From a virus: a stretch of DNA of 44,786 nucleotides. Each line of letters begins with the position of its first letter. The first letter of the stretch is position 1. Positions 2,501 to 42,606 of the stretch are shown in pieces. Location of the stretch: IMG/VR virus record IMGVR_UViG_3300028556_000016, positions 1 through 44,786 of that record; one strand, given 5' to 3'. Below the pieces are notes generated by a model. That model was not told where the DNA came from and ran no database searches. It worked only from the letters and a program-made list of their open reading frames with translations. The position numbers and the translations under genes were made by a program.

Positions 2501-2716
2501 ATGGAACTTCTCGAAATAAGGGCAATGGCTGTATTCATAGTGGCTCAGCTGCCACCAATGCAGCCAGATGAGATGCTCAAGGTGCTAGTGTCCGCCCAAA
2601 TGCTTGTTAAGGCATGGTATTGTCAATCGGGCGAGATTTTGCCCTTTCCAGCCCCAATGGGAGACTCTCCCAGGGCCGTAGCCATGCGGAAAGACAACCC
2701 GTCTGGAATTCCATAA
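2501..2716 (+). CDS. Hypothetical small protein convergent with the repressor (71 residues)
   Basis: The protein starts MELLEIRAMAVFIVAQLPPMQ and has amphipathic helices; no helix-turn-helix is clear. GGGGG lies about eight bases before the ATG. The last 94 bases overlap the 3' end of the repressor gene on the other strand, and that part (GDSPRAVAMRKDNPSGIP) could be only antisense. By position it could be an antirepressor or Cro-like partner, but that is a guess. Confidence 0.45.
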   Translation: MELLEIRAMAVFIVAQLPPMQPDEMLKVLVSAQMLVKAWYCQSGEILPFPAPMGDSPRAVAMRKDNPSGIP

Positions 2717-2976
2717 TATAGCCAGTCCCCGGTCACTCCCGGACACTTGGAAACGATAATATCAGCCAGTTGGCGCCCAAGGGGGTGACCGCGCTCGGCG
2801 TTATTATAACGCGCATATTCGACCCGCAGAAATTTGGTCGCGAATTGGCGCTGGGTACGGTACCCCATCGCCTCGCGTAGCCTAGCGAGGCGTTTAGCCC
2901 GGTCCCTATCGGCTTTCGTCCCCACTACCATCGGGTCCGATAGTTCCACAAAATTCTTTTGACCCATATCAATCAT
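2623..2976 (-). CDS. XRE-type helix-turn-helix repressor
   Basis: A 117-residue protein. Residues about 22-75 fit an XRE/Cro-CI fold: DRAKRLARLREAMGYRTQRQFA supplies the first helices and scaffold, with a recognition helix around ATKFLRVEYARYNNAERG, followed by QLADIIVSKCPGVTGDWLYYG, a tail typical of alphaproteobacterial phage CI-like proteins. It lacks the LexA-type self-cleavage domain, so induction would not follow the classical RecA-stimulated route. It is transcribed from the divergent region at 2977-3046 and lies beside the candidate operator. The start at 2976 has only a weak ribosome site; the ATG at 2967 is an alternative. Confidence 0.8.
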   Translation of the reverse strand: MIDMGQKNFVELSDPMVVGTKADRDRAKRLARLREAMGYRTQRQFATKFLRVEYARYNNAERGHPLGRQLADIIVSKCPGVTGDWLYYGIPDGLSFRMATALGESPIGAGKGKISPD

Positions 2977-3046
2977 ATTTTTTCACTTGCATATCCAAAA
3001 TTTCTTGATATATTATACCTAACCGCACGAAAAGCAACCCGTTCCA
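2977..3046. promoter_or_regulatory. Divergent promoter region, repressor (minus) / HNH-like gene (plus)
   Basis: Plus strand: TTGCAT at 2987-2992 followed after 16 bases by TATATT (3009-3014), or after 18 by TATTAT. Minus strand: a perfect TATAAT (complement of 3012-3017) positioned for the repressor gene, with a poor -35 box (TTGCTT, 14-base spacing). The two -10 candidates overlap, so transcription in the two directions may be mutually exclusive. Confidence 0.55.
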
Positions 3047-3882: not shown

Positions 3883-4329
3883 ATGGGCAACATAGGACGG
3901 AGTAGCGGCACAATGGTCCACGATTCAGGGATATCGAAGCCAGATATGAGTTGCGCGGTTTCACTTGCGAGGCGGCTTGAAAGCCGGGAGCGTTTCCGTA
4001 CCGGCAACAGAGAAATTGCCAGGCGGTCTCTCGCGGTCAAGCTGCGTGTGGGCGTCGGTACAATAGAAAATCTAGTGCGTGGCCGCGTCAAGCGAATCGA
4101 CGCGACGATCCGCGACAAACTGCAAGCACTTCTGGTCAAAGAACTAGAACAAGAAATAGCAAGGTTGTGGCATGAGCTGGACATCGCTCGTCAGGGCGGC
4201 GCTCATCTTGCTTCGGAGCAAATTAGCGAGATTGAGACGCATCTTTCGCAAGCAAAACAAGTCTTAAACGCGGCGGGGGCCGCAATGGGGGGTATTTATG
4301 GAGCTATCCGCAGTACGGATAAGCCGTGA
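3883..4329 (+). CDS. Rhizobial-phage-type DNA-binding protein
   Basis: A 148-residue protein. Residues about 20-95 (CAVSLARRLESRERFRTGNREIARRSLAVKLRVGVGTIENLVRGRVKRIDATIRDKLQALL) contain a helix-turn-helix-like segment and are very like proteins common in Hyphomicrobiales prophages; the C-terminus is a coiled coil with Glu/Lys heptads. It probably regulates transcription of the following genes. It overlaps the GcrA-type gene by 32 bases. Confidence 0.65.
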   Translation: MGNIGRSSGTMVHDSGISKPDMSCAVSLARRLESRERFRTGNREIARRSLAVKLRVGVGTIENLVRGRVKRIDATIRDKLQALLVKELEQEIARLWHELDIARQGGAHLASEQISEIETHLSQAKQVLNAAGAAMGGIYGAIRSTDKP

Positions 4330-4849
4330 CGCTCGACACCAAGACAGAAACATCTGGACGAAAGACGCCGAAGCTCGCCTGAGAGAGCTTTGGGACATGG
4401 GCGAAACCTGTGAGCAGATCGCCCACACGTTAAACCGCGAATTCTCCCTCCGCACCACGCGCAATTCCGTCATTGGAAAATCGCGGCGGCTTGGTTGTGC
4501 CCCTCACAAATATTACCGCATTTACCGCGCCGAATCCTACGTCAGCTACCGCAGCCGACCGAAAAAAGAAAAACCGGTCAAGGTCGCCAAAAAGCAGAAG
4601 CTTCCTAATTTCTATCTGGTCGAGGCGGCAAGCGATCTCGACATCCCGCTAGAGCAACGCAAGCAATTCCTGGATCTCGGCCCGCATGACTGCCGCTGGC
4701 CCGTGGGGGAGGTTGCCAGCGAAAACTTCTTTTTCTGCGGCGCTCCCGCCGAAGCCGATTATCCATACTGCGCTGGCCACTGTCGCCGCGCCTATGACAC
4801 CGCCTACCGCGTAAGGAGAGAGGGCAATGCAGCGAGCAACGCATCGTAG
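4298..4849 (+). CDS. gcrA: GcrA-type cell-cycle regulator homologue
   Basis: A 183-residue protein with both parts of GcrA. Residues about 19-70 are the DNA-binding domain (WTKDAEARLRELWDMG...CEQIAHTLN...TRNSVIGKSRRLG). A basic linker follows, then the C-terminal domain that contacts sigma-70: HDCRWPVGE (130-138), FFFCG (144-148) and YPYCAGHC (155-162) with conserved Cys132, Cys147, Cys158 and Cys162. In Caulobacter and relatives GcrA joins RNA polymerase sigma-70 and activates promoters carrying CcrM-methylated GANTC sites. A phage copy could redirect host transcription or act as the activator of phage genes. The N-terminal 18 residues are an extension not seen in host GcrA. Confidence 0.85.
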   Translation: MELSAVRISRDARHQDRNIWTKDAEARLRELWDMGETCEQIAHTLNREFSLRTTRNSVIGKSRRLGCAPHKYYRIYRAESYVSYRSRPKKEKPVKVAKKQKLPNFYLVEAASDLDIPLEQRKQFLDLGPHDCRWPVGEVASENFFFCGAPAEADYPYCAGHCRRAYDTAYRVRREGNAASNAS

Positions 4850-5024
4850 CAATTACCGCAAGCCAATCGTGAGCGCCATGATGCGTGGAATGCCCCGCAC
4901 CCTCGGCGTCCAGCTCGCTTACGATTTATGGCTTGAGTTGGAAGGCATCGCCAAGCGCGAAAACATTAGCAAGGCGGAAATCGCCCGGCGGCTTATCGAA
5001 AAATGGGTGGCTGAAAACAAATGA
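4827..5024 (+). CDS. Ribbon-helix-helix (CopG/Arc-like) regulator
   Basis: A 65-residue protein whose C-terminal half, PRTLGVQLAYDLWLELEGIAKRENISKAEIARRLIEKW, fits the ribbon-helix-helix pattern: a short strand, two helices and the KAEIARRLI second helix. These are small dimeric repressors. AAGGAG lies upstream of the ATG. It overlaps the GcrA gene by 23 bases and the next gene by four bases. Confidence 0.7.
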   Translation: MQRATHRSNYRKPIVSAMMRGMPRTLGVQLAYDLWLELEGIAKRENISKAEIARRLIEKWVAENK

Positions 5025-5392
5025 GCCGCCCTTGGATGCCACTTTATGTGGGGGACTATCTCCGCGATACGCGCCACCTGACGACGCTCCAGCACGGCGC
5101 CTACCTCCTCCTCCTCATGGAGTATTGGACCAAAGGTAGTTTGCCTAGTGATGGCAAAAATCTGCGCAGAATTTGTCTCCTATCCCGTCAGCAATGGGCA
5201 AGCAATAGCCAAGCAATTGCTTCGATGTTCACGCCGGAATGGCGTCAACCACGGATGGATAGAGAATTGGAAAAGGCGAAGGAAATCAGCCTTAAGCGCG
5301 CTGTGTTTGGTGCCAAGGGGGGCAGAATGAGCCACGGGCTAAATAACGTCCAGCGGTTTGGTGTGGTGCGGGGGTTTCCAAGCAAAAGCTAA
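5021..5392 (+). CDS. Short DUF1376 (YdaU-like) replication-type protein
   Basis: The N-terminus has the DUF1376 signature: PWMPLYVGDYLRDTRHLTTLQHGAYLLLLMEYW, followed by LPSDGKNLRRICLLSRQQW and FTPEW..PRMDRELEKAKE. In other phages and prophages this domain starts a longer protein in the replication position. Here it stops at residue 123, soon after the domain. The frame after the TAA is open for only nine codons (AKGRHTTTT), so the C-terminal part may have been lost. No other replication initiator or polymerase is encoded, so host replication enzymes are likely used. Confidence 0.75.
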   Translation: MSRPWMPLYVGDYLRDTRHLTTLQHGAYLLLLMEYWTKGSLPSDGKNLRRICLLSRQQWASNSQAIASMFTPEWRQPRMDRELEKAKEISLKRAVFGAKGGRMSHGLNNVQRFGVVRGFPSKS

Positions 5393-5453: not shown

Positions 5454-6035
5454 ATGGCACGACCAAGGAAACTAAATGTCCAGCGCGAACCCAACGGTAA
5501 GCCGAAGCGCAACGTCATATCGGCGGAAGTCCTCTTTTACAGGATGCGTGATTTGGCGCGGGATGGGGCGTCTATCGAAAGGCCCGATGACGCCCTTGCG
5601 GGATTTACATTGGGGAAACTATTGCTGCGATGGCGGTCAAATAAAGCAGACGGAATTTCAGTAAAGCAATACGAGGCTGGCCAAAGATGGTCTGCGATCG
5701 TTCAGGAGCATGCCAAATTAATGGGGTATGACCTTTTCGTAAGGTCGCCAAGGTTCGAAAAAATCAGCCCGGGATTTGATAATGAAATTGAGCCAGACGA
5801 AGACGCGCCAGAAGGAAGTGAGGCGAGGGAATTATGGATTAAAGTCACCAGAATAAAAAGGGTTTTTGTAGCTTGCTATGACGCATTAATGGCTGAATGC
5901 AAATTACATGGAATAAACGTTAGAGATGTCACTTATGGGGTATGCGTAGAGAACTGGAGGGCGGGGGGTCTCTCTCAGAGAGACTTTCAAGACCTTCGCG
6001 TGGGCCTGAATTCGCTCGCGAGGGTATTATCATGA
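5454..6035 (+). CDS. Hypothetical phage protein, MARPRK start (193 residues)
   Basis: Begins MARPRKLNVQREPNGKPKRN, a basic tail that could bind nucleic acid, then mixed helices; the end (VCVENWRAGGLSQRDFQDLRVGLNSLARVL) is strongly helical. It follows a DUF1376 gene, a position where lambdoid phages carry late regulators, but no antiterminator motif can be named. Its stop overlaps the methyltransferase start (ATGA at 6032-6035), tying it to the downstream glycan-type cassette. Confidence 0.6.
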   Translation: MARPRKLNVQREPNGKPKRNVISAEVLFYRMRDLARDGASIERPDDALAGFTLGKLLLRWRSNKADGISVKQYEAGQRWSAIVQEHAKLMGYDLFVRSPRFEKISPGFDNEIEPDEDAPEGSEARELWIKVTRIKRVFVACYDALMAECKLHGINVRDVTYGVCVENWRAGGLSQRDFQDLRVGLNSLARVLS

Positions 6036-6619
6036 ATTATTGGAATAAGATTATAATCACGCAGCGGCAAGCAAAATACCCCGCCGAGACATTCGTGCGG
6101 TTTGTGGCGCGAAACTATTATGGCGAGCCCGACAGAAGCAAAGTTCACTTCCTCGATCTTGGGTGCGGGGCAGGGGCTAATTCATGGTTCCTGGCGCGCG
6201 AGGGTTTCAGGGTGACTGCGCTTGATGGATCAGAGGGCGCACTCGCGTCGCTCAAGCACAGGTTTCACGTGGAACAATTCAACGCCGATGTCCATTACGC
6301 GCATTCGGATATTTGCGAATGGCTGTATCCGGTTTCAAAATTCAACTGTGTTCTCGATCATAACACGCTCTGCCATGTCGAGAAGCCGCCAATGGACAAG
6401 ATTTATGGCTCGCTCATTAGTGGCGGCAAGTTCTTTTCCGTGGCACCAGCCGAAGATACCTGGAAGGGAACGCTAATCAATAAAGGTTTCTGCCGAACGC
6501 TGATGCGCGGCGAGATCAAGCGTCTCTATCGGCCATTCGAGGATATTAAAATCCGCAAGCAAACATATCCAGACAATCAATTCACCATCGCATCGTGGGT
6601 GATTGAGGCCACGAAATGA
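6032..6619 (+). CDS. Class I SAM-dependent methyltransferase
   Basis: A 195-residue protein with a Rossmann methyltransferase core: motif I VHFLDLGCGAGANSWFLA near residues 38-55, the acidic end of strand 2 (VTALDGS), HSDICEW for the adenine-binding turn, and VLDHNTLCHVEKPPMD then LISGGKFFSVAP for motifs IV-VI. It lacks NPPY-type DNA-methylase motifs, so a small molecule, sugar or nucleotide-sugar acceptor is more likely. Start chosen at 6032 for the ATGA overlap. It is the first enzyme of a coupled run including a WbqC-like protein, an aminotransferase and a cytidylyltransferase. Confidence 0.8.
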   Translation: MNYWNKIIITQRQAKYPAETFVRFVARNYYGEPDRSKVHFLDLGCGAGANSWFLAREGFRVTALDGSEGALASLKHRFHVEQFNADVHYAHSDICEWLYPVSKFNCVLDHNTLCHVEKPPMDKIYGSLISGGKFFSVAPAEDTWKGTLINKGFCRTLMRGEIKRLYRPFEDIKIRKQTYPDNQFTIASWVIEATK

Positions 6620-6693
6620 CAGAAGTCGATTTCCTGCGCGCAATGCTTGTCGTAGCCGGGGTAATAATCATCATTTATGGATTTTTGAAATGA
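6616..6693 (+). CDS. Small membrane peptide (25 residues)
   Basis: MTEVDFLRAMLVVAGVIIII followed by YGFLK, a single hydrophobic helix with a short acidic N-terminus and a Lys at the end. The start overlaps the methyltransferase stop (ATGA) and the stop overlaps the ATG of the WbqC reading frame (ATGA at 6690-6693). The stop is immediately followed by the tRNA. Small coupled membrane peptides may anchor neighbouring enzymes; that role is a guess. Confidence 0.6.
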   Translation: MTEVDFLRAMLVVAGVIIIIYGFLK

Positions 6694-7454
6694 GCCGGGA
6701 TAGCTCAACGGCAGAGCGTCGCGATCGTAACGCGAAGGTAGTCAGGTTCAATTCCAGACTCCCGGCACCAATTCTTTCTGGGCATGCTCCGGTGTATCTG
6801 CCGGGCATTCTGTTCTTTAACAAGGTTGCGCTTTCGTCGGCTTTTATGTTTGTGGGGCACTGTCAATACAGCCAGAAGAGCTGGCAAACACGCAACCGAA
6901 TCCGGCAGGGCGATAAATCAATCATGCTCTCGGTGCCGGTGCAGAAGGACTTCGGGCAAAGCGTAAACGATACCCAGATCATTGAGGGCAACTGGCGCAA
7001 GAAGCATCTACGCTCGATCCAGCAAGCCTATTACCGCAGCCCATATTTCGACTGGTATTACCCGCATCTAGAACAACTCATCGCCCATCCGTTCAAATAT
7101 CTTGGCGAGATGAACATGGCGATCATCGTAACAATGCTCGACTGGCTGGAAATAGAAACAACAATTCTCGACAGTTCCGACTACCCGATCGAGGGTCACA
7201 AGACCGATATGTTGCTGAGTATGTGCGAGTGCGCGCGCTACGACCATTATCTATCGAACGAAGGGGCGCGGGCTTATGTCGATGAATACCGCATGAAGGA
7301 TTACGAAGTCACGCACCATTGGCAAATCTTTGAACATCCCCAGTATGAGCAGGGGCATCGCGACTTCATCCCAAATCTTTCAGCCATCGACTTGCTATTC
7401 AACGAAGGGCCAAGGGCGGCGAATATTGTGAGGTCATGTGGCCACATCGCTTGA
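6690..7454 (+). CDS. WbqC-like protein
   Basis: From residue 28 the protein matches the WbqC family (PF08889): ILSGHAPVYLPGILFFNKVA, then FVGHCQYSQKSWQTRNRI and SVPVQ, and later HLEQL..HPFKYLGEMNMAII. WbqC proteins occur in O-antigen and other polysaccharide clusters, often beside aminotransferases, and are suspected acyl- or glycosyl-transfer enzymes. The start is uncertain. The ATG at 6690 overlaps the previous stop, but the first 27 codons are then the tRNA sequence. Homology begins at codon ATT 6771, the base after the tRNA CCA; GTG 6792 is the first conventional internal start and would remove conserved residues. It overlaps the aminotransferase by 17 bases. Confidence 0.75.
   Translation: MSRDSSTAERRDRNAKVVRFNSRLPAPILSGHAPVYLPGILFFNKVALSSAFMFVGHCQYSQKSWQTRNRIRQGDKSIMLSVPVQKDFGQSVNDTQIIEGNWRKKHLRSIQQAYYRSPYFDWYYPHLEQLIAHPFKYLGEMNMAIIVTMLDWLEIETTILDSSDYPIEGHKTDMLLSMCECARYDHYLSNEGARAYVDEYRMKDYEVTHHWQIFEHPQYEQGHRDFIPNLSAIDLLFNEGPRAANIVRSCGHIA
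6694..6770 (+). tRNA. tRNA-Thr (anticodon CGT)
   Basis: A 77-base cloverleaf. Acceptor GCCGGGA (6694-6700) pairs perfectly with TCCCGGC (6760-6766), followed by A and encoded CCA (6768-6770). D arm: GCTC (6703-6706) / GAGC (6714-6717) with GG in the loop. Anticodon stem TCGCG / CGCGA, loop ATCGTAA (6724-6730), anticodon CGT at 6726-6728. T loop TTCAATT (6747-6753). The T stem is odd: six positions with an internal A-A mismatch (6744/6756), one base longer than normal. Encoded CCA and perfect acceptor and anticodon stems argue for a working tRNA. Confidence 0.85.
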
Positions 7455-8139
7455 AGAATTGATGCAATACGAGCACTCCATCGGCTTCCCAAGGGCCAGG
7501 GACGCGCTCGCTGCATGGTGCGAGATAACGGGCGAGAAGATCAGCATTCCAACGAATTGCTGCCCGGCGCTATTGCCATTCGCAAAGGAGCTTGTGCCGA
7601 TCGATCCAGAGACGGGATTAGCTCCCGTGCCAGTCCAGCTCTACGGCTATCGCCAGATATTCCCCGGAGCAAAGCTTGAGATCGACCCGCTGATGACTGG
7701 GCTCATGGGCTCGCCATTTGCTGAGTCAACCATCGTAAGCTTCGGCTACGCCAAGACGATCGACATTGGTGGAGGCGGCGCAATCCTGACCAATGATAAA
7801 TCCTTGGCAGATGAATTGATGAAACGGGGAGTATTTCCCCCAATTCTAATTGACCCATTGGCTGATGCGCTCGGGCGCATTCACTCCATCATCATGGAGA
7901 AGAAAAAACAATACGAGGAAGTCGAGAATGAATTTGCGCCATTTTTAGTGCGATTGCCTGAAAGGCCAGCCGTGCCTTGGAGATTTGTATCCACGATATC
8001 CGAACAGCCAACCAACGAGATTAAAAGTACTTTCGTGCGACGTGGATTGAAATTCAGCCGCAATTATCCACCGCTTCCAGGCGTGACGGACCCCGGCGCA
8101 ATCGAATGGGGTAAGAAGGTCATCAACATATGGAAATAG
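7438..8139 (+). CDS. Miniature DegT/DnrJ/EryC1-type PLP aminotransferase
   Basis: A 233-residue protein, against roughly 370-400 for the family. It keeps the key landmarks in compressed form: FPRARDAL (substrate-site helix), ISIPTNCCPAL (the VIVPS...T strand), LVPIDPETG (the PVFVD strand), then SFGYAKTIDIGGGGAILTND with the PLP-forming Lys106, and a C-terminal part with RRGLKFSRNYPPLP. Family enzymes transaminate keto-sugar nucleotides. Deletions lie mainly between the cofactor strands, so activity is uncertain. Start is GTG 7438, overlapping the WbqC-like gene by 17 bases; stop overlaps the next ATG. Confidence 0.75.
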   Translation: MATSLEELMQYEHSIGFPRARDALAAWCEITGEKISIPTNCCPALLPFAKELVPIDPETGLAPVPVQLYGYRQIFPGAKLEIDPLMTGLMGSPFAESTIVSFGYAKTIDIGGGGAILTNDKSLADELMKRGVFPPILIDPLADALGRIHSIIMEKKKQYEEVENEFAPFLVRLPERPAVPWRFVSTISEQPTNEIKSTFVRRGLKFSRNYPPLPGVTDPGAIEWGKKVINIWK

Positions 8140-8327
8140 ACGAACTCGACGACATCATGAACCAGATCGAAGCTCAGCGCGTTCGCAACAATCACTATTT
8201 CATGAAGATGTGGCGCATGGTTTTCGAATGTCCCCATTGCCAGACGAATGCCCGCGAATTCCAGAAAGAAATCCGTCAAGGCGACCTGCGCATATCCGAA
8301 CTCAATTCAAGGCTAGCAAGCACATGA
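8130..8327 (+). CDS. Small CxxC protein (65 residues)
   Basis: MEIDELDDIMNQIEAQRVRN begins an acidic-helical protein, with a single FECPHCQTNAREF zinc-knuckle-like motif and a coiled-coil tail. It overlaps the aminotransferase by ten bases and the cytidylyltransferase by four. With one CxxC it could bind metal only as a dimer. Possibly an accessory subunit of the cassette; no family recognised. Confidence 0.6.
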   Translation: MEIDELDDIMNQIEAQRVRNNHYFMKMWRMVFECPHCQTNAREFQKEIRQGDLRISELNSRLAST

Positions 8328-9070
8328 GCCGAATTGGTTGCATAATCCAGGCGCGCATGGGCTCGGAACGTCTCCCCGGCAAGGTGATGATGGATCTGGA
8401 TGGCGAGCCCGTCCTCGCCCATGTATTCCGCCGCATGAAAACAGTCGGGCTCGATGTGGTGTGCGGGGCATTCCCGGATGAACCAGCATCGGCACCGCTT
8501 ATCGAACTCGCCAAGGCCCACAAGGCCGGTGTCTATCTGGGCGATGAAAAGGACGTTCTCAATCGCTATTACGAAGCGGCAAAGCATTTCGATCTTGATG
8601 CCGTGATGCGCGTGACGGGAGACTGCCCGCTCATAGACCCGGTAGTATGCGCCAAGGTCTTGGCGGCTTATGAAACCGGCCTATTCGATTTCGTGGCCAA
8701 TGATGTCTATGCGAGCTACCCAATCGGGCTGGGCTGTGAGGTGTTCGGCTTTGGACTTCTCGAACGGGCCGCCAATCATTGCGGCGACCCCTACGGCCGT
8801 GAGCATGTCTCCCACTGGATGAAACACCTTAGGGGTTATTCAACGTGGAATTTAGGCTGTCCCATCAACTACATAGGCGGCCTAAAGCTGGCAATTGATA
8901 CTCAATTCGACCTCGATTACGTGCGCGCCATCATGGCCCAGAAGCCGGAGGATTACACACTCGCCTCAACACTGGCAGCGCGTGAGCGGGCTGAGGCCGC
9001 TGGTACTCTCCCTCAGGCCCCAAGCTGGAATCAAACAAGTCGAGGAACTGAAGAAAGTCGGGTCGCGTAG
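8324..9070 (+). CDS. SpsF/NeuA-type cytidylyltransferase
   Basis: A 248-residue protein of the acylneuraminate/KDO cytidylyltransferase family, SpsF-like branch. The N-terminal nucleotide-binding signature is IIQARMGSERLPGKVM (residues 7-22), followed by PVLAHVFRRMK, DEKDVLNRYYEAAK and the metal-site motif RVTGDCPLIDP. The length suits the SpsF group. Such enzymes make CMP-activated sugars for surface glycans. The start at 8324 overlaps the previous stop by four bases and gives exactly the conserved N-terminus. Last gene of the 6032-9070 cassette. Confidence 0.88.
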   Translation: MSRIGCIIQARMGSERLPGKVMMDLDGEPVLAHVFRRMKTVGLDVVCGAFPDEPASAPLIELAKAHKAGVYLGDEKDVLNRYYEAAKHFDLDAVMRVTGDCPLIDPVVCAKVLAAYETGLFDFVANDVYASYPIGLGCEVFGFGLLERAANHCGDPYGREHVSHWMKHLRGYSTWNLGCPINYIGGLKLAIDTQFDLDYVRAIMAQKPEDYTLASTLAARERAEAAGTLPQAPSWNQTSRGTEESRVA

Positions 9071-35393: not shown

Positions 35394-36110
35394 TTGAACC
35401 CAGCGAAAAAGCTGCTGTTCATTGATATTGAAACACACCCCGCAATTATAGCCAGTTGGTCGATAAGGGCGCCCTATGCCGGTGCAGTGTGGGTAGAGAG
35501 AAACACTTTCATCCTTTGTTTCTCTGCCAAGTGGGCGCACGAAAAGAAAGTGCGCGTTCATTCCCTCCCAGACTATCCAAGATACAAAAAAGACCGCTAC
35601 GACGACAAGCCTCTTTGCAAGGAACTGGCCCGCTATCTGGATGAAGCCGATATAGTTTGCGCCCATAACGGCGACCGCTTCGACTTGCCCCTAATCATGG
35701 GGCGGCTCTTTATGAATAACATAAGGGAGCCATCCCCGTTCGATCGCATTGATACGCTTAAGATTGCCAGACAATTCAAGCTCGACAGTCACAAGCTGGA
35801 TAATATCAGCCAGCAAAAGAGCGGCGAGCGTAAAATACCCAATACTGGCGGCCATCTTTGGCGCACCTGCGGCGAGGGCGACGATAAGTCATGGGCCAAG
35901 ATGTGCAGGTATTGCGCACACGATACCGAATTACTCGCGACCAGATATGAAGAACTCGCCCCCTGGAAGCGCAATCATCCTGCCCTCTTTAATTCCGGCT
36001 GCCCCGTGTGTGGATCGGACAACATCCATAGACGGGGCCGCGTAAGGCAAACACCTAAATTCCAATTTAATTGCCGTAGCTGCGGTCACTGGTGGACAGC
36101 AAAGCCATGA
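35394..36110 (+). CDS. RNase H-fold 3'-5' exonuclease with C-terminal zinc ribbon
   Basis: A 238-residue protein starting TTG 35394. Exonuclease motifs: LLFIDIETHP (Exo I, Asp and Glu), IVCAHNGDRFDLPLI (Exo II), DTLKIARQFKL, and RYCAHDTELL (Exo III). Residues about 203-233 form a zinc ribbon: SGCPVCGSDNIH...FNCRSCGHWW. Such predicted exonucleases occur in many phages, sometimes named ribonuclease H-like. Position after the lysis genes is unusual for a DNA or RNA metabolism enzyme. Confidence 0.8.
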   Translation: MNPAKKLLFIDIETHPAIIASWSIRAPYAGAVWVERNTFILCFSAKWAHEKKVRVHSLPDYPRYKKDRYDDKPLCKELARYLDEADIVCAHNGDRFDLPLIMGRLFMNNIREPSPFDRIDTLKIARQFKLDSHKLDNISQQKSGERKIPNTGGHLWRTCGEGDDKSWAKMCRYCAHDTELLATRYEELAPWKRNHPALFNSGCPVCGSDNIHRRGRVRQTPKFQFNCRSCGHWWTAKP

Positions 36111-37282: not shown

Positions 37283-37507
37283 TTAGCGTTCGGCTCCGGT
37301 TTTCGGTAGTTCATCCAAAAGGCTCCCAAGTATATCAGCAAAACCACAATCGCATGGCTTGCCGGAGTCTTTCGCGCAGCTTGGGCGATGCCATCCATAC
37401 TCCCAAATTGCATCCTTCAAACGGTCTATTTCGCACCACGGACAGCCAGGATCCGTCCCCGATACGAGGACGGTCTGTGCAGATTTGATAAAGTGCTTAC
37501 AGTTCAT
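37283..37507 (-). CDS. Cys-rich early protein (74 residues)
   Basis: MNCKHFIKSAQTVLVSGTDP then CPWCEIDRLKDAIWEYGWHRPSC, and CDCGF: two CxxC/CxC-like pairs that could bind zinc, with a coiled helix between. Typical of small phage early genes with DNA- or protein-binding zinc knuckles. Confidence 0.6.
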   Translation of the reverse strand: MNCKHFIKSAQTVLVSGTDPGCPWCEIDRLKDAIWEYGWHRPSCAKDSGKPCDCGFADILGSLLDELPKTGAER

Positions 37508-37510
37508 TTT

Positions 37511-37738
37511 CTAGCCAGTAAGTGTTTCTTTGAACTTTTGCCAAAGCCCAATCATATGATCCGCAAGCTCGCTCACATCCTCTTTGGTGAGGGGGTTTTC
37601 CCGCCAGCCATTTGGCCAATCAATGCCGCCGTCATACCCCTCACTTAGTTCTAGTTCAGGATTGATGCCTATAATTCCGCGATTGGCGTAGGCGGTTCGA
37701 CCACTAGAAAACGTGATGGTGTCGCCATCAATTTTCAT
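37511..37738 (-). CDS. Hypothetical early protein (75 residues)
   Basis: MKIDGDTITFSSGRTAYANR begins a beta-rich half followed by an acidic C-terminal helix (LTKEDVSELADHMIGLWQKF). Looks like a small globular protein; GRTAYANRGIIGINPEL resembles a conserved segment in phage early proteins, but no function is known. Confidence 0.65.
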   Translation of the reverse strand: MKIDGDTITFSSGRTAYANRGIIGINPELELSEGYDGGIDWPNGWRENPLTKEDVSELADHMIGLWQKFKETLTG

Positions 37739-37740
37739 AT

Positions 37741-37953
37741 CTAGCTCCCGCCTGTTTGTGGGCCATGAACCGCCAACTCGATGTTTCGGATCACGTCATC
37801 GAGCGTGTTGGCGAGGGTTGTTTGCTCACGTCCGGCCTGACCATCCAGCCTGCGCGATAGCGCATGAGAGACCAGCGACAGCTTTTTGAGCGCGATGATA
37901 TCCATGCCCGACACAGTGATCGTCACGGTCGCCTTTTCAATTACCCCAAGCAT
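37741..37953 (-). CDS. Hypothetical early protein (70 residues)
   Basis: MLGVIEKATVTITVSGMDII then ALKKLSLVSHALSRRLD...LANTLDDVIRNIEL: a beta strand start followed by two helices. Overlaps the end of the upstream 52-residue gene. Function unknown. Confidence 0.6.
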   Translation of the reverse strand: MLGVIEKATVTITVSGMDIIALKKLSLVSHALSRRLDGQAGREQTTLANTLDDVIRNIELAVHGPQTGGS

Positions 37954-37956
37954 CGA

Positions 37957-38115
37957 TCACCTGTCTGTTAAAGGGCCATTAGCAATTGCGCGTAGCTTTT
38001 GGAGGATGACACAAAGCGGGCAATCATCGTCAAAAGCCCCGGCGTTGTGATTGTTGCCGTCCTCGTATTTCCGAATTAGCTTTTTAATGGCGGCCAGCAA
38101 CTTCTTTTCTTCCAT
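37957..38115 (-). CDS. Small early protein with a CPLC motif (52 residues)
   Basis: MEEKKLLAAIKKLIRKYEDG, then FDDDCPLCVILQKLRAIANG. One CxxC pair could bind metal as a dimer or form a disulfide. Its position between two well-supported genes and clean open frame support it. Confidence 0.6.
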   Translation of the reverse strand: MEEKKLLAAIKKLIRKYEDGNNHNAGAFDDDCPLCVILQKLRAIANGPLTDR

Positions 38116-38138
38116 GATGGTTGCTCATTTAGCGGCGG

Positions 38139-38606
38139 TTAAGCGTTTTCTCTCTGATACCGCTCACGCGCCGCAGCCATCTTGGCATCGTATTCGGCTT
38201 GTGCTTCGGGCAGTAGCTTGAACATGACCGGGCGAGACGAATAGCTATCGTGCTCGTCGTGCAGCCAATAGGTTCCGGTCGGCCACTCGCCCTCATAGAC
38301 GCAATCGAATATGCCCGTGCTGCCGCTCTCGATCACCTTGAACGTCGATCCGTCCTTCGGGCAGTATTGCGCTTCTCGCCAGCCAAGCTCTTTCAGGCGT
38401 TGCCACGCGCTAAACATGACATTGATTGCGTCCTGTTCTGTTGGCATATCCTCGGCGCGCTTGGCCTCGGCCGCTTTCGCGGCTTCCCATAGCGCCTCGC
38501 CCTCGGCGCGGGTCAATGGTTCGTGGCGGTAGACCGGCAAACCGTGCTTGTCGCGCTCGCCAGTGTCGAAGGTCTTGTGGCCAACAATATCGTCAGGTTG
38601 TTGCAT
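38139..38606 (-). CDS. Hypothetical early protein (155 residues)
   Basis: Middle part INVMFSAWQRLKELGWREAQYCPKDGSTFKVIESGSTGIFDCVYEGEWPTGTYWLHDEHDSYSSRPVMFKLLP is a compact domain seen in alphaproteobacterial phage proteins (a GW-CPKDGS..F pattern with WP-G-YW). The first 55 residues are a charged helix. Function unknown. Confidence 0.7.
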   Translation of the reverse strand: MQQPDDIVGHKTFDTGERDKHGLPVYRHEPLTRAEGEALWEAAKAAEAKRAEDMPTEQDAINVMFSAWQRLKELGWREAQYCPKDGSTFKVIESGSTGIFDCVYEGEWPTGTYWLHDEHDSYSSRPVMFKLLPEAQAEYDAKMAAARERYQRENA

Positions 38607-38608
38607 GA

Positions 38609-38800
38609 CTAGCCATTATCAATCGGTTCTGAGTTTCGCCAAATCTTTCCGCAGTCAACGCATACCGCCGTTGTGAACGTGCCCGCCGGACCGGAGCATG
38701 TCGAAGAAAAGATTTCTTCGTGCTTGCATTTGGCCTGCACTCGACGCCGGTTCTTTTGCGCCAACGTTTCGGCGGAAAGCATTTTGACGGTCAAGGTCAT
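38609..38800 (-). CDS. Zinc-ribbon-like early protein (63 residues)
   Basis: CKHEEIFSSTCSGPAGTFTTAVCVDCGKIW provides Cys/His and CxxC pairs typical of a small zinc ribbon, after a basic helix (AQKNRRRVQAKC). It could bind nucleic acid or protein. Directly downstream of the Lar-like gene. Confidence 0.65.
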   Translation of the reverse strand: MTLTVKMLSAETLAQKNRRRVQAKCKHEEIFSSTCSGPAGTFTTAVCVDCGKIWRNSEPIDNG

Positions 38801-38814
38801 TTGTCAGCCATAAA

Positions 38815-39015
38815 CTATATGCGCGCTAAATCATTGATGTTGCCGTCAGCAAATATACGTTCATTGTGCAGACGGATGGCTTGATCCTTTGTTCCCTGTC
38901 CTGGTCCAAGGTAAAAGCACGTATTACATTCGACGTGATGCCAGCCGCTATCATATTTATAAACCGATAGATTCTTGCTCGTGCGGCAGTTCGGGCATGG
39001 GTGCATGGTTGCCAT
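38815..39015 (-). CDS. Lar-like restriction-alleviation zinc ribbon
   Basis: MATMHPCPNCRTSKNLSVYK, then HHVECNTCFYLGPGQGTKDQAIRLHNER: CPxC...V-C-xxC...G-...-AI-xHN-R matches the Lar family pattern (CPFCG ... V-C-xxCga-gp ... eAi-lWN-R). Lar in Rac prophage eases type I restriction. Length fits. Trp of WN is His here. Confidence 0.75.
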   Translation of the reverse strand: MATMHPCPNCRTSKNLSVYKYDSGWHHVECNTCFYLGPGQGTKDQAIRLHNERIFADGNINDLARI

Positions 39016-39018
39016 AGG

Positions 39019-39180
39019 TCAGGCCGTTTCCCACCGTTTAAGCGCGTCCATTGCCAAGAGTGCGGGAACTTCCTGATTGCTCCATTGCCCTTGCGTTGCG
39101 TGAGCCATCACGCGGATTGCACACCAATAGGCAACTTGGCGAGGAAGCAGCCACGCTATTTTCCGAGTGATCTTTTCCAA
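39019..39180 (-). CDS. Conserved phage protein, LLPRQVAYWCAIRV type (53 residues)
   Basis: Start TTG 39180 with a perfect AGGAGG seven bases upstream. MEKITRKIAWLLPRQVAYWC...HATQGQWSNQEVPALLAMDALKRW is a pattern found in many phage early regions across proteobacteria. Function unknown. The strong ribosome site and pattern make it reliable despite its size. Confidence 0.75.
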   Translation of the reverse strand: MEKITRKIAWLLPRQVAYWCAIRVMAHATQGQWSNQEVPALLAMDALKRWETA

Positions 39181-39181
39181 A

Positions 39182-39313
39182 TCAACCTCCTGTTTGTTGT
39201 GCGGCGGGTAATAGATGACCCCACGATTTGCCGGTGTCTAGAACAGCAAACCGCACTGCGTTAATTCGCACGCTGGCGTAAGGCATTGCCCAAGAGGCCG
39301 GGGTCTTTCTCAT
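39182..39313 (-). CDS. Hypothetical early protein (43 residues)
   Basis: MRKTPASWAMPYASVRINAV..., start overlapping the preceding stop by four bases (ATGA); stop two bases before the next TTG start. An internal ATG at 39286 would give 34 residues. Function unknown. Confidence 0.5.
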   Translation of the reverse strand: MRKTPASWAMPYASVRINAVRFAVLDTGKSWGHLLPAAQQTGG

Positions 39314-39510
39314 TGTGCCAACGGTTTCTCATGCGGTTGGGCAAGCCGCCCAATCTGGTGAGCATTGGCGCGAACTAAATCACGCATCCAATCTGAGACG
39401 CCTTGCGCCATTCCGAGAGATGGAATGCCAGAAATCTGCACCATCACGGTATGACTTCCATCCGCTTCTTCGCGGTGGGATGAATGCAGGTCTATCGGAA
39501 TTTCAGCCAT
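39310..39510 (-). CDS. Hypothetical early protein (66 residues)
   Basis: MAEIPIDLHSSHREEADGSH... then a helical MAQGVSDWMRDLVRANAHQIGRL. AGGAC lies before the start; TTG 39513 is one codon upstream. It follows a chain of micro-ORFs. Function unknown. Confidence 0.65.
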   Translation of the reverse strand: MAEIPIDLHSSHREEADGSHTVMVQISGIPSLGMAQGVSDWMRDLVRANAHQIGRLAQPHEKPLAQ

Positions 39511-40508: not shown

Positions 40509-41408
40509 TCAAAACGTGGGGTCTTGTGATTTCAATAGGTTAGTTTGTAACGTTTTAACATTGTCGATGCGGTCCATTGCCTGCATTGCCAGTCTGTTCT
40601 TGTTGGCCAATCGGCAGTACCGCGCGACCATTGGTTCGCTCATTCCGATCATCGAACTGATCTCAAGCGTGGTTGCCCCCTGGCCATTGAGCCGGACAAC
40701 CGCCGTGGCCCGCAGGCCGTGCAGCACTAAACCTCTAGCTTTGTGGAGTTGAAGTTTAGGATTGTTGTCGCGTTCTTTGGTCCAATCGTGCGATAGGCGG
40801 TTACGAGTAAATTGACGGCCATCCGGCGCGAGCACCAGAAAGAATGGCGGATGCTTTTCCCATTTGGCAACCAGACCTGTAAATTCACTTGAGAACGGGA
40901 CGAGGAGCTGGACGCCCGTTTTCTTTTGCGTGACGTTGATGCCCTGCCGGCCATTGTATTCTCCCAAGTCCGACCATCGCATTTTTACAATATCAGACCC
41001 GCGCTGGCCCGTACTGACGGCCAATAGTACGGCCCGCGCCAGGTCCGGCCTAGCGTGTTCAATGGCGGCTGCTACTTCCTTTTCGGTCCACGGCTCATGG
41101 CCGTCATCGCTGCCGACAACCTGCGTCCCGAGCGTGATGGGGTGAGGCAGCAAATCCCGCACAACAGCCCACTTCTCGACAGCCTTTAGGGCCGTCTTGG
41201 CGACCGATTGCTTGCCTGGGTATTGAGCCAGCCCGTCCAGGTGGGCCTGAATGATCGACGCCCTAACCTGGGACACATCCAGTGGGCCGATCGTGACCTC
41301 CGCAAGTACCAACTCGCGCTTCCAATGGTCCTGCGTGGACTCGCCAAGCCCACTGAAATAAGGGCTATCGAGAAACGCCTTGATGACATGGGAGAAGTTA
41401 CCGGGCAT
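40509..41408 (-). CDS. int: Tyrosine recombinase (phage integrase)
   Basis: A 299-residue integrase. Residues 1-85 are the SAM-like DNA-binding domain. Catalytic residues: Arg136 (STGQRGSDI), Lys162/163 (VTQKKTGVQ), His230-x-x-Arg233 (LHGLRATA) and Tyr264 (VARYCRL). The position that usually holds a second His/Trp is Met256 (IGMS), so the pentad is incomplete. Start at 41408 has GGAGGG six bases upstream. It inserts the phage at a host attachment site and makes the phage temperate. It overlaps the excisionase-like gene by 11 bases. Confidence 0.9.
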   Translation of the reverse strand: MPGNFSHVIKAFLDSPYFSGLGESTQDHWKRELVLAEVTIGPLDVSQVRASIIQAHLDGLAQYPGKQSVAKTALKAVEKWAVVRDLLPHPITLGTQVVGSDDGHEPWTEKEVAAAIEHARPDLARAVLLAVSTGQRGSDIVKMRWSDLGEYNGRQGINVTQKKTGVQLLVPFSSEFTGLVAKWEKHPPFFLVLAPDGRQFTRNRLSHDWTKERDNNPKLQLHKARGLVLHGLRATAVVRLNGQGATTLEISSMIGMSEPMVARYCRLANKNRLAMQAMDRIDNVKTLQTNLLKSQDPTF

Positions 41409-41658
41409 TGACCGCCCTCCGTGTCGCATTGCGCACCCCCGTCGCTAGATCGCCCTCACTGGGCGCCGCGCCAAGGTTACTACGCATCCGGCTTTCAACG
41501 TCAGCCCATATCCACATCCTTTTGCCGCCGCTCATCCGACCGGCCGGCAACTGTCCTTCCTCAATCCGCTTGTCCAATGTCCCCTCACTGATCGACAGAT
41601 GCCAGCAAAGCGTTGCGGCATCCATGAACGGCGGGGGATATGAAAACGTGCGGCTCAT
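41398..41658 (-). CDS. Excisionase-like helix-turn-helix protein (86 residues)
   Basis: MSRTFSYPPPFMDAATLCWH begins a short MerR/AlpA-type winged helix: LSISEGTLDKRIEEGQLPAGRMSGGKRMWIWADVE. This pattern, right before int in alphaproteobacterial prophages, marks an excisionase or an integrase regulator. Start at 41658 matches the conserved MSRTFSYPPPF; an ATG at 41691 would add 11 residues. Confidence 0.75.
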   Translation of the reverse strand: MSRTFSYPPPFMDAATLCWHLSISEGTLDKRIEEGQLPAGRMSGGKRMWIWADVESRMRSNLGAAPSEGDLATGVRNATRRAVNAR

Positions 41659-42069: not shown

Positions 42070-42606
42070 TTAAGCGTAAAGACCGTCATCTGCATTTGGA
42101 TTGCCGGCATATCCAGCCTTCCAGTCCTTCGTTACCGGCTCTAAGATAAAGCAGGCGATATGCCTGCCAGTGCCCTTACCTGCGGATCCATCCTCGGTAG
42201 CGCACCAGCGCACGTCGCCAAGGTTGCGGACCTTCGTGCCGATGGCCGCCAAGATCATCAAAACCCATTTATCTACCGGATAGACCAGCACGACGCGCTT
42301 GCCCTTCTGTTGCTCGGCTATCGCCTTCCGCACCCAAGCGGTTGGCCCCTTCTTCTTTCCTTCGTGGATAATGGATCCGAAGGGCGGGTTGACGTAATTC
42401 GATTGGCCCCATTCACAGGTCAGGCCGTCAAAGCCGTGCGGCAGCGGGTACGGGCACGGGTCGAAGTCGAATTTGAACTCGGCGTTCAGCTCGTCATATA
42501 GCGCCTTCGGCGTCAGCCAATAGTGTTTGCCGTCGTCGCCGTTGCCCCGATGAAACTTGTTCTCGGATGGCTGAAGCTGTGATTGGTGAATCTCAGTGTT
42601 GCTCAT
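42070..42606 (-). CDS. Dam-type DNA N6-adenine methyltransferase
   Basis: A 178-residue phage Dam-family protein (PF05869-like): YWLTPKALYDELNAEFKFDFDPCPYP gives the AdoMet-side strand with FDFDP, YVNPPF (Asn73-Pro-Pro-Phe76) is the catalytic NPPF motif, followed by VRKAIAEQQKGKRVVLVYPVDKW. It methylates adenine in a short site, protecting phage DNA or changing promoter recognition. It lies in the early operon. Confidence 0.85.
   Translation of the reverse strand: MSNTEIHQSQLQPSENKFHRGNGDDGKHYWLTPKALYDELNAEFKFDFDPCPYPLPHGFDGLTCEWGQSNYVNPPFGSIIHEGKKKGPTAWVRKAIAEQQKGKRVVLVYPVDKWVLMILAAIGTKVRNLGDVRWCATEDGSAGKGTGRHIACFILEPVTKDWKAGYAGNPNADDGLYA

Follow-up and report, generated by a model that had tools for sequence, protein, structure and literature searches.

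A GcrA homologue in the early operon of a temperate podophage of Bradyrhizobium-type bacteria

Host GcrA helps RNA polymerase to start transcription in the cell cycle. It is a cofactor of sigma-70 acting at region 2 (reviewed in PMC7403470), and members of the family have been reported from several phages. The phiCbK-like phages encode a GcrA (gp222), which was proposed to up-regulate the host replication apparatus (PMC3556154); gp5 of Agrobacterium phage Atu_ph08 is a GcrA (PMC6630229), phiLM21-like Sinorhizobium prophages carry GcrA genes (PMC12429752), and GcrA was also found in a coral-associated Rhizobiales phage (PMC11309003). Phage-borne GcrA is already known in many alphaproteobacterial phages, and the gene described here, located on a stretch of 44,786 nucleotides (referred to as the window), adds one more.

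Like gp222 of the phiCbK group, the window protein is a full-length phage-encoded GcrA; however, the phiCbK group comprises giant Caulobacter phages of ~200 kb, whereas the window represents a 44.6-kb temperate podophage. A tblastn search with the window GcrA at E 1e-3 did not find phiCbK, which is found when Caulobacter crescentus GcrA serves as the query. Atu_ph08 and the phiLM21-like prophages, here likened by description, resemble the window in having GcrA in Rhizobiales phages, but they are different phage types; a search of phiLM21 for PF07750 gave no match. An alignment scan detected GcrA relatives in at least 167 viral contigs, some of which are large isolate-genome regions that may include host DNA, and viral contigs gave no match when the window GcrA alone served as query. 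Bradyrhizobium genomes (G041-G058) show two to six GcrA-family matches each, one of them canonical (~200 bits) and the paralogues scoring ~95-185 bits; some of these matches are fragments, and the low scorers are possibly mobile.

The phage genome and its early operon

The two ends share a 146-nt sequence that differs at a single position, so the window is probably a complete, terminally redundant genome of about 44,640 nt. The phage is a temperate podophage: in addition to an integrase (Table 1), it encodes virion proteins, among them a PaP3-like portal and a head protein, a holin, and the recombination proteins SSB and Erf. The closest relative of the portal is that of Bradyrhizobium phage ppBeUSDA76-2 (54%), and a related head protein occurs in 23 genome loci, 22 from Bradyrhizobium or Bradyrhizobiaceae and one from a MAG. 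These relatives point to Bradyrhizobium or a near relative, that is, to soil Bradyrhizobium-type bacteria, as the host.

Table 1. Features of the window discussed in the text
Feature	Position	Strand	Evidence and remarks
Candidate lysogeny repressor	2623..2976	-	Weak match to phrog_4 transcriptional repressor (E 0.027); divergent from early operon; putative assignment
Likely promoter region of early operon	2977..3046	+	TTGCAT, 18 nt, TATTAT, recognized by eye; no GANTC; predicted
148-aa protein, coiled-coil-like C-terminus	3883..4329	+	Overlaps gcrA start
gcrA homologue, 183 aa	4298..4849	+	PF07750 match; PDB 7ye1 match; model compared with 5yiv and 5yix
Small protein	4827..5024	+	Weak CopG/Arc-like match (Pfam/PHROG); overlaps gcrA end
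DUF1376 primosomal/replication protein	5021..5392	+	PF07120 (2.4e-17); phrog_3992 primosomal protein (1.3e-19)
tRNA-Thr(CGT)	6694-6770		Within glycan cargo stretch
Integrase	40509-41429		Profile match
Adenine-methyltransferase-like protein, 178 aa	42070..42606	-	NPPF motif; separate leftward gene, different operon from gcrA

The gcrA gene is an intact open reading frame in a tightly packed rightward early operon with overlapping starts and stops, in which genes for an HNH protein and two small genes are followed by gcrA, the small protein and DUF1376. The promoter assigned to this operon is absent from the list of a consensus promoter scan. Of 80 viral GcrA loci, 11 likewise contain a DUF1376 gene, as do several sibling phages, and in locus L192 the gene is directly adjacent to gcrA. 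Further downstream, the early region contains glycan-type cargo (5942-9070; SAM methyltransferase, WbqC, a DegT-like piece and a cytidylyltransferase), possibly representing surface-conversion genes. On the right side of the genome, a DnaQ-like exonuclease gene (35394-36110; phrog_403, 9.6e-65) soon after the holin gene is in an odd location for a replication gene, and between the lysis/DnaQ-like cluster and position 39315 a stretch of ~1.8 kb of the late right part (37488-39315) is without a confident gene.

Two sibling phages carry genes of this family in the corresponding early position: a full GcrA in G016 (locus L108, 1462-2022, plus strand) and a protein with tandem DNA-binding domains and no sigma domain in G018 (locus L109, 1213-1701, minus strand). 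In both, the slot lies after a helix-turn-helix and coiled-coil-like gene and before the DUF1376 gene. The upstream-slot proteins of these siblings match one another at 2e-23; the product of the window gene preceding gcrA shares 23-26% identity with them in a three-way alignment, which does not establish homology, and BLAST gave no match between it and its L108 counterpart. Full-length GcrA is present in two of 42 sibling records, the window counted and many records being fragments, and the sibling loci around the head gene, which often stop short of the early region, yielded no GcrA in a profile search. Given how few close relatives carry the protein, this phage type can do without it.

Domain structure and relationships of the phage GcrA

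The initial annotation had described a phage-encoded GcrA with both domains intact and with an N-terminal extension, and our analysis agrees on both points. The Pfam family PF07750 is matched with an E value of 4.3e-27 (95.8 bits, gathering cut-off 26.9) over residues 20-173 and profile positions 3-152 of 155, thus spanning both domains, and the window protein also matches Caulobacter GcrA in the PDB (7ye1, E 4.6e-15). In an AlphaFold2 model, built from a 51-sequence alignment with phage relatives by a method that may have seen the GcrA structures, the protein consists of the N-terminal extension (residues 1-17), a DNA-binding domain (~18-67), a linker (~68-118), a sigma-interacting domain (~119-167) and a C-terminal helix (159-182); pLDDT exceeds 90 in both domains, and the linker is poorly defined. 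The modelled DNA-binding domain superimposes on 5yiv_A, which is bound to methylated DNA, with 1.1 A over 45 residues (44% identity, Z 7.4), and the modelled sigma-interacting domain on 5yix_B with 0.7 A over 45 columns (47% identity; Foldseek) or 1.6 A over 48 (VIA). The domains, their order and their predicted folds are those of C. crescentus GcrA (7ye1, 5yiv, 5yix), with which the window protein also shares the invariant tryptophan, the TRNxVIGK block and the Cys/Cys/Cys/His set. All nine columns that are invariant across the 51 aligned phage GcrAs are present (M1, W20, R55, G60, R64, C132, C147, C158, H161).

The well-conserved sigma-binding domain and its close fit to 5yix in the model would suit a decoy, i.e. 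a phage GcrA that occupies sigma-70 region 2, displaces host GcrA and damps host cell-cycle transcription. For a pure decoy, however, the DNA-binding domain would be needless, and this domain is conserved and, according to the model, well folded; we regard a decoy function as quite unlikely.

The phage protein differs from C. crescentus GcrA in sequence (~34% identity overall), in being phage-borne and by two additional segments. The extension of about 17 residues at the N-terminus is real, because no usable start other than ATG 4298 retains the DNA-binding domain: this codon is the sole ATG, GTG or TTG between the in-frame upstream stop (4265) and the first conserved tryptophan, W20, and a G-rich, Shine-Dalgarno-like run is located just 5' of it. 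The second segment consists of five residues inserted into the DNA-binding domain before the recognition helix, an insertion common to diverged host paralogues and the GcrA of sibling phage L108; the recognition block itself (TRNxVIGKxxRLG) is conserved. Identity to host and canonical GcrA amounts to 33-41%, and with the NCBIfam equivalog model for GcrA (NF050816) the window protein scores 76 bits, below the cut-off of 280 bits.

In a phylogenetic tree, the window GcrA clusters with other phage GcrAs with weak support and on a long branch, and for this reason the gene is not a recent host capture. The rarity of GcrA among close relatives would fit a decaying or accidentally acquired host gene without function for the phage, but the gene is an intact open reading frame within an operon whose densely packed genes overlap at their starts and stops, all invariant residues are kept at this low identity, which suggests long selection, and the protein groups, if weakly, with those of other phages. 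Such an origin is therefore most improbable.

GANTC sites and the adenine methyltransferase

The window contains 82 GANTC sites compared with 192 expected from shuffled sequences. This depletion characterizes both host and clade: the ratio of observed to expected sites is 0.42 for the window, 0.37 for host loci and 0.42 (sd 0.10) across 61 sibling loci. A reading of the depletion as a signature of GcrA was rejected, as it is equal in the siblings, regardless of GcrA, and in the host. Based on a hand-made gene list, three of the 82 sites are intergenic compared with nine expected, and one of the three (44758) duplicates site 118 via the terminal repeat and falls within a gene when the genome is taken as a circle, leaving two truly intergenic sites. 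With an automated gene call, the window has an intergenic ratio of 1.05, siblings have one of 1.25 and GcrA-bearing phage loci one of 1.21, whereas the same test on 400 kb of Bradyrhizobium chromosome yields 1.51 (P 1.6e-5); the test can thus detect enrichment in the host, and in the phage it detects none. No GANTC was found at a distance of 200 nt or less from the repressor or early-operon starts, including the region upstream of 3047, and within the same distance of the other likely transcription starts examined the only sites are at -73 relative to 44689 (the genic site of the terminal repeat) and at -141 relative to 1832. A GACTC 43 nt before 3883 was considered as a conserved site upstream of the gcrA cassette and discarded; it sits in an open reading frame, and L108 has no GANTC nearer than ~290 nt to the equivalent gene. 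A few GANTC sites could still be functional in the phage. The absence of a GANTC signal agrees with a survey of cell-cycle factor sites in alphaproteobacterial phages, where GcrA sites were without positional asymmetry (PMC9437464).

The gene at 42070-42606 had been annotated initially as a Dam-type methyltransferase. The open reading frame exists and its product is adenine-methyltransferase-like, with the NPPF motif; the family assignment is less firm, with 27.8 bits for PF05869, just under the cut-off of 28.1, 21.1 bits for TIGR01712 (cut-off 97), and a match to phrog_111 ('DNA methyltransferase', 1e-16) confined to residues 22-112. Since its homologue in Pelagibacter phage HTVC100P passes PF05869 (29.6 bits), the protein is likely a divergent relative of the phage Dam methyltransferase family. 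It is 72-75% identical to the proteins of HTVC100P and Bradyrhizobium phage ppBjS10J-1, and its next-nearest relatives are found in Leptospira phages LE3 and LE4; PF07750 has no match in ppBjS10J-1, HTVC100P or LE3. Among 48 other GcrA-bearing records, four contain PF05869 and 16 contain N6_N4 methyltransferases. As each of the two genes occurs in phages without the other, a conserved GcrA-methyltransferase module was rejected.

GANTC-specific methyltransferases are encoded by some alphaproteobacterial phages (PMC5537653). One such enzyme, PhiLM21_p027, is like the window protein a small phage adenine methyltransferase with NPPF, but there is no similarity beyond this four-residue motif: a BLASTP comparison with this one characterised enzyme gave no meaningful alignment, and GANTC specificity on the grounds of likeness to it was dropped. 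The window contains no CcrM-type (PF01555) gene. The product of 5942-6619, which has a methyltransferase fold, is unlikely to be a DNA methyltransferase, as its only matches are to generic methyltransferase families and its gene adjoins the glycan genes. GATC is scarce in the window (observed/expected 0.77) and in the nearest siblings of low G+C content (L006, 0.78; L007, 0.84), compared with a mean of 1.29 in the other siblings and 1.31 in the host. This was rejected as a trace of the methyltransferase, because L006 and L007 are also low and the methyltransferase-bearing ppBjS10J-1 is not (1.35).

The co-occurrence of both genes in one genome had led to the suggestion that the phage ties its own transcription to methylation via GcrA and its own adenine methyltransferase, and GANTC-specific enzymes in other alphaproteobacterial phages lend this some plausibility. 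The initial annotation itself named a lack of GANTC enrichment at phage promoters as evidence to the contrary, and no enrichment was found there. In addition, GANTC depletion in the window equals that in siblings regardless of GcrA, the intergenic ratio of GcrA-bearing phages resembles that of siblings, the two genes belong to different operons and are not conserved as a pair, and the methyltransferase is unlike PhiLM21_p027. A coupling of phage transcription to methylation is thus unsupported and very unlikely.

Proposed role of the phage GcrA

We propose, with a probability of about 0.5, that the window GcrA is an early sigma-70 cofactor that biases the host GcrA-type transcription programme during phage replication. 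The protein would be made from the early lytic operon; like host GcrA, it would most likely bind region 2 of host sigma-70 through its C-terminal domain, and promoter DNA would be bound by the N-terminal three-helix domain. Adding to or replacing host GcrA on RNA polymerase, it might push host GcrA-type promoters (those of S-phase and replication genes at methylated GANTC) as phage replication starts. We infer this mechanism only from domain conservation and position. It is favoured by the full PF07750 match, the fit of both modelled domains, the invariant residues and the DUF1376 neighbour, and by the same role having been proposed earlier for phiCbK gp222 (PMC3556154). Host targets would be available, because Bradyrhizobium has GcrA and GANTC is enriched 1.5-fold between its genes. 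The insertion before the recognition helix and the rarity of GcrA in siblings count against this role, and given the low identity to host GcrA and the score far under the equivalog cut-off, the set of promoters served by the phage protein may differ from that of the host.

Several of these features would also suit a redirected sigma-70 cofactor, which recognizes another, non-GANTC and perhaps methylation-independent site and activates phage promoters in the manner of a middle or late activator. The insertion common to diverged host paralogues and L108, phage promoters without GANTC, the long branch together with the low equivalog score, and the tandem DNA-binding-domain protein without sigma-binding domain in the slot of a sibling with similar early gene order all point in this direction; the conserved recognition block argues against it, and we consider this explanation unlikely. 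It is rather unlikely, too, that the phage GcrA has a new methylation-independent DNA site and switches host RNA polymerase to phage promoters; if this were true, GcrA-type cofactors would form a general class of transcription switches used by viruses of alphaproteobacteria.

With the window, the phages known to carry GcrA now include a small, temperate Bradyrhizobium-type podophage; relatives of the protein are common in viral contigs and partly encoded beside replication genes. If any phage GcrA redirects sigma-70, this would represent a take-over route specific to alphaproteobacteria.
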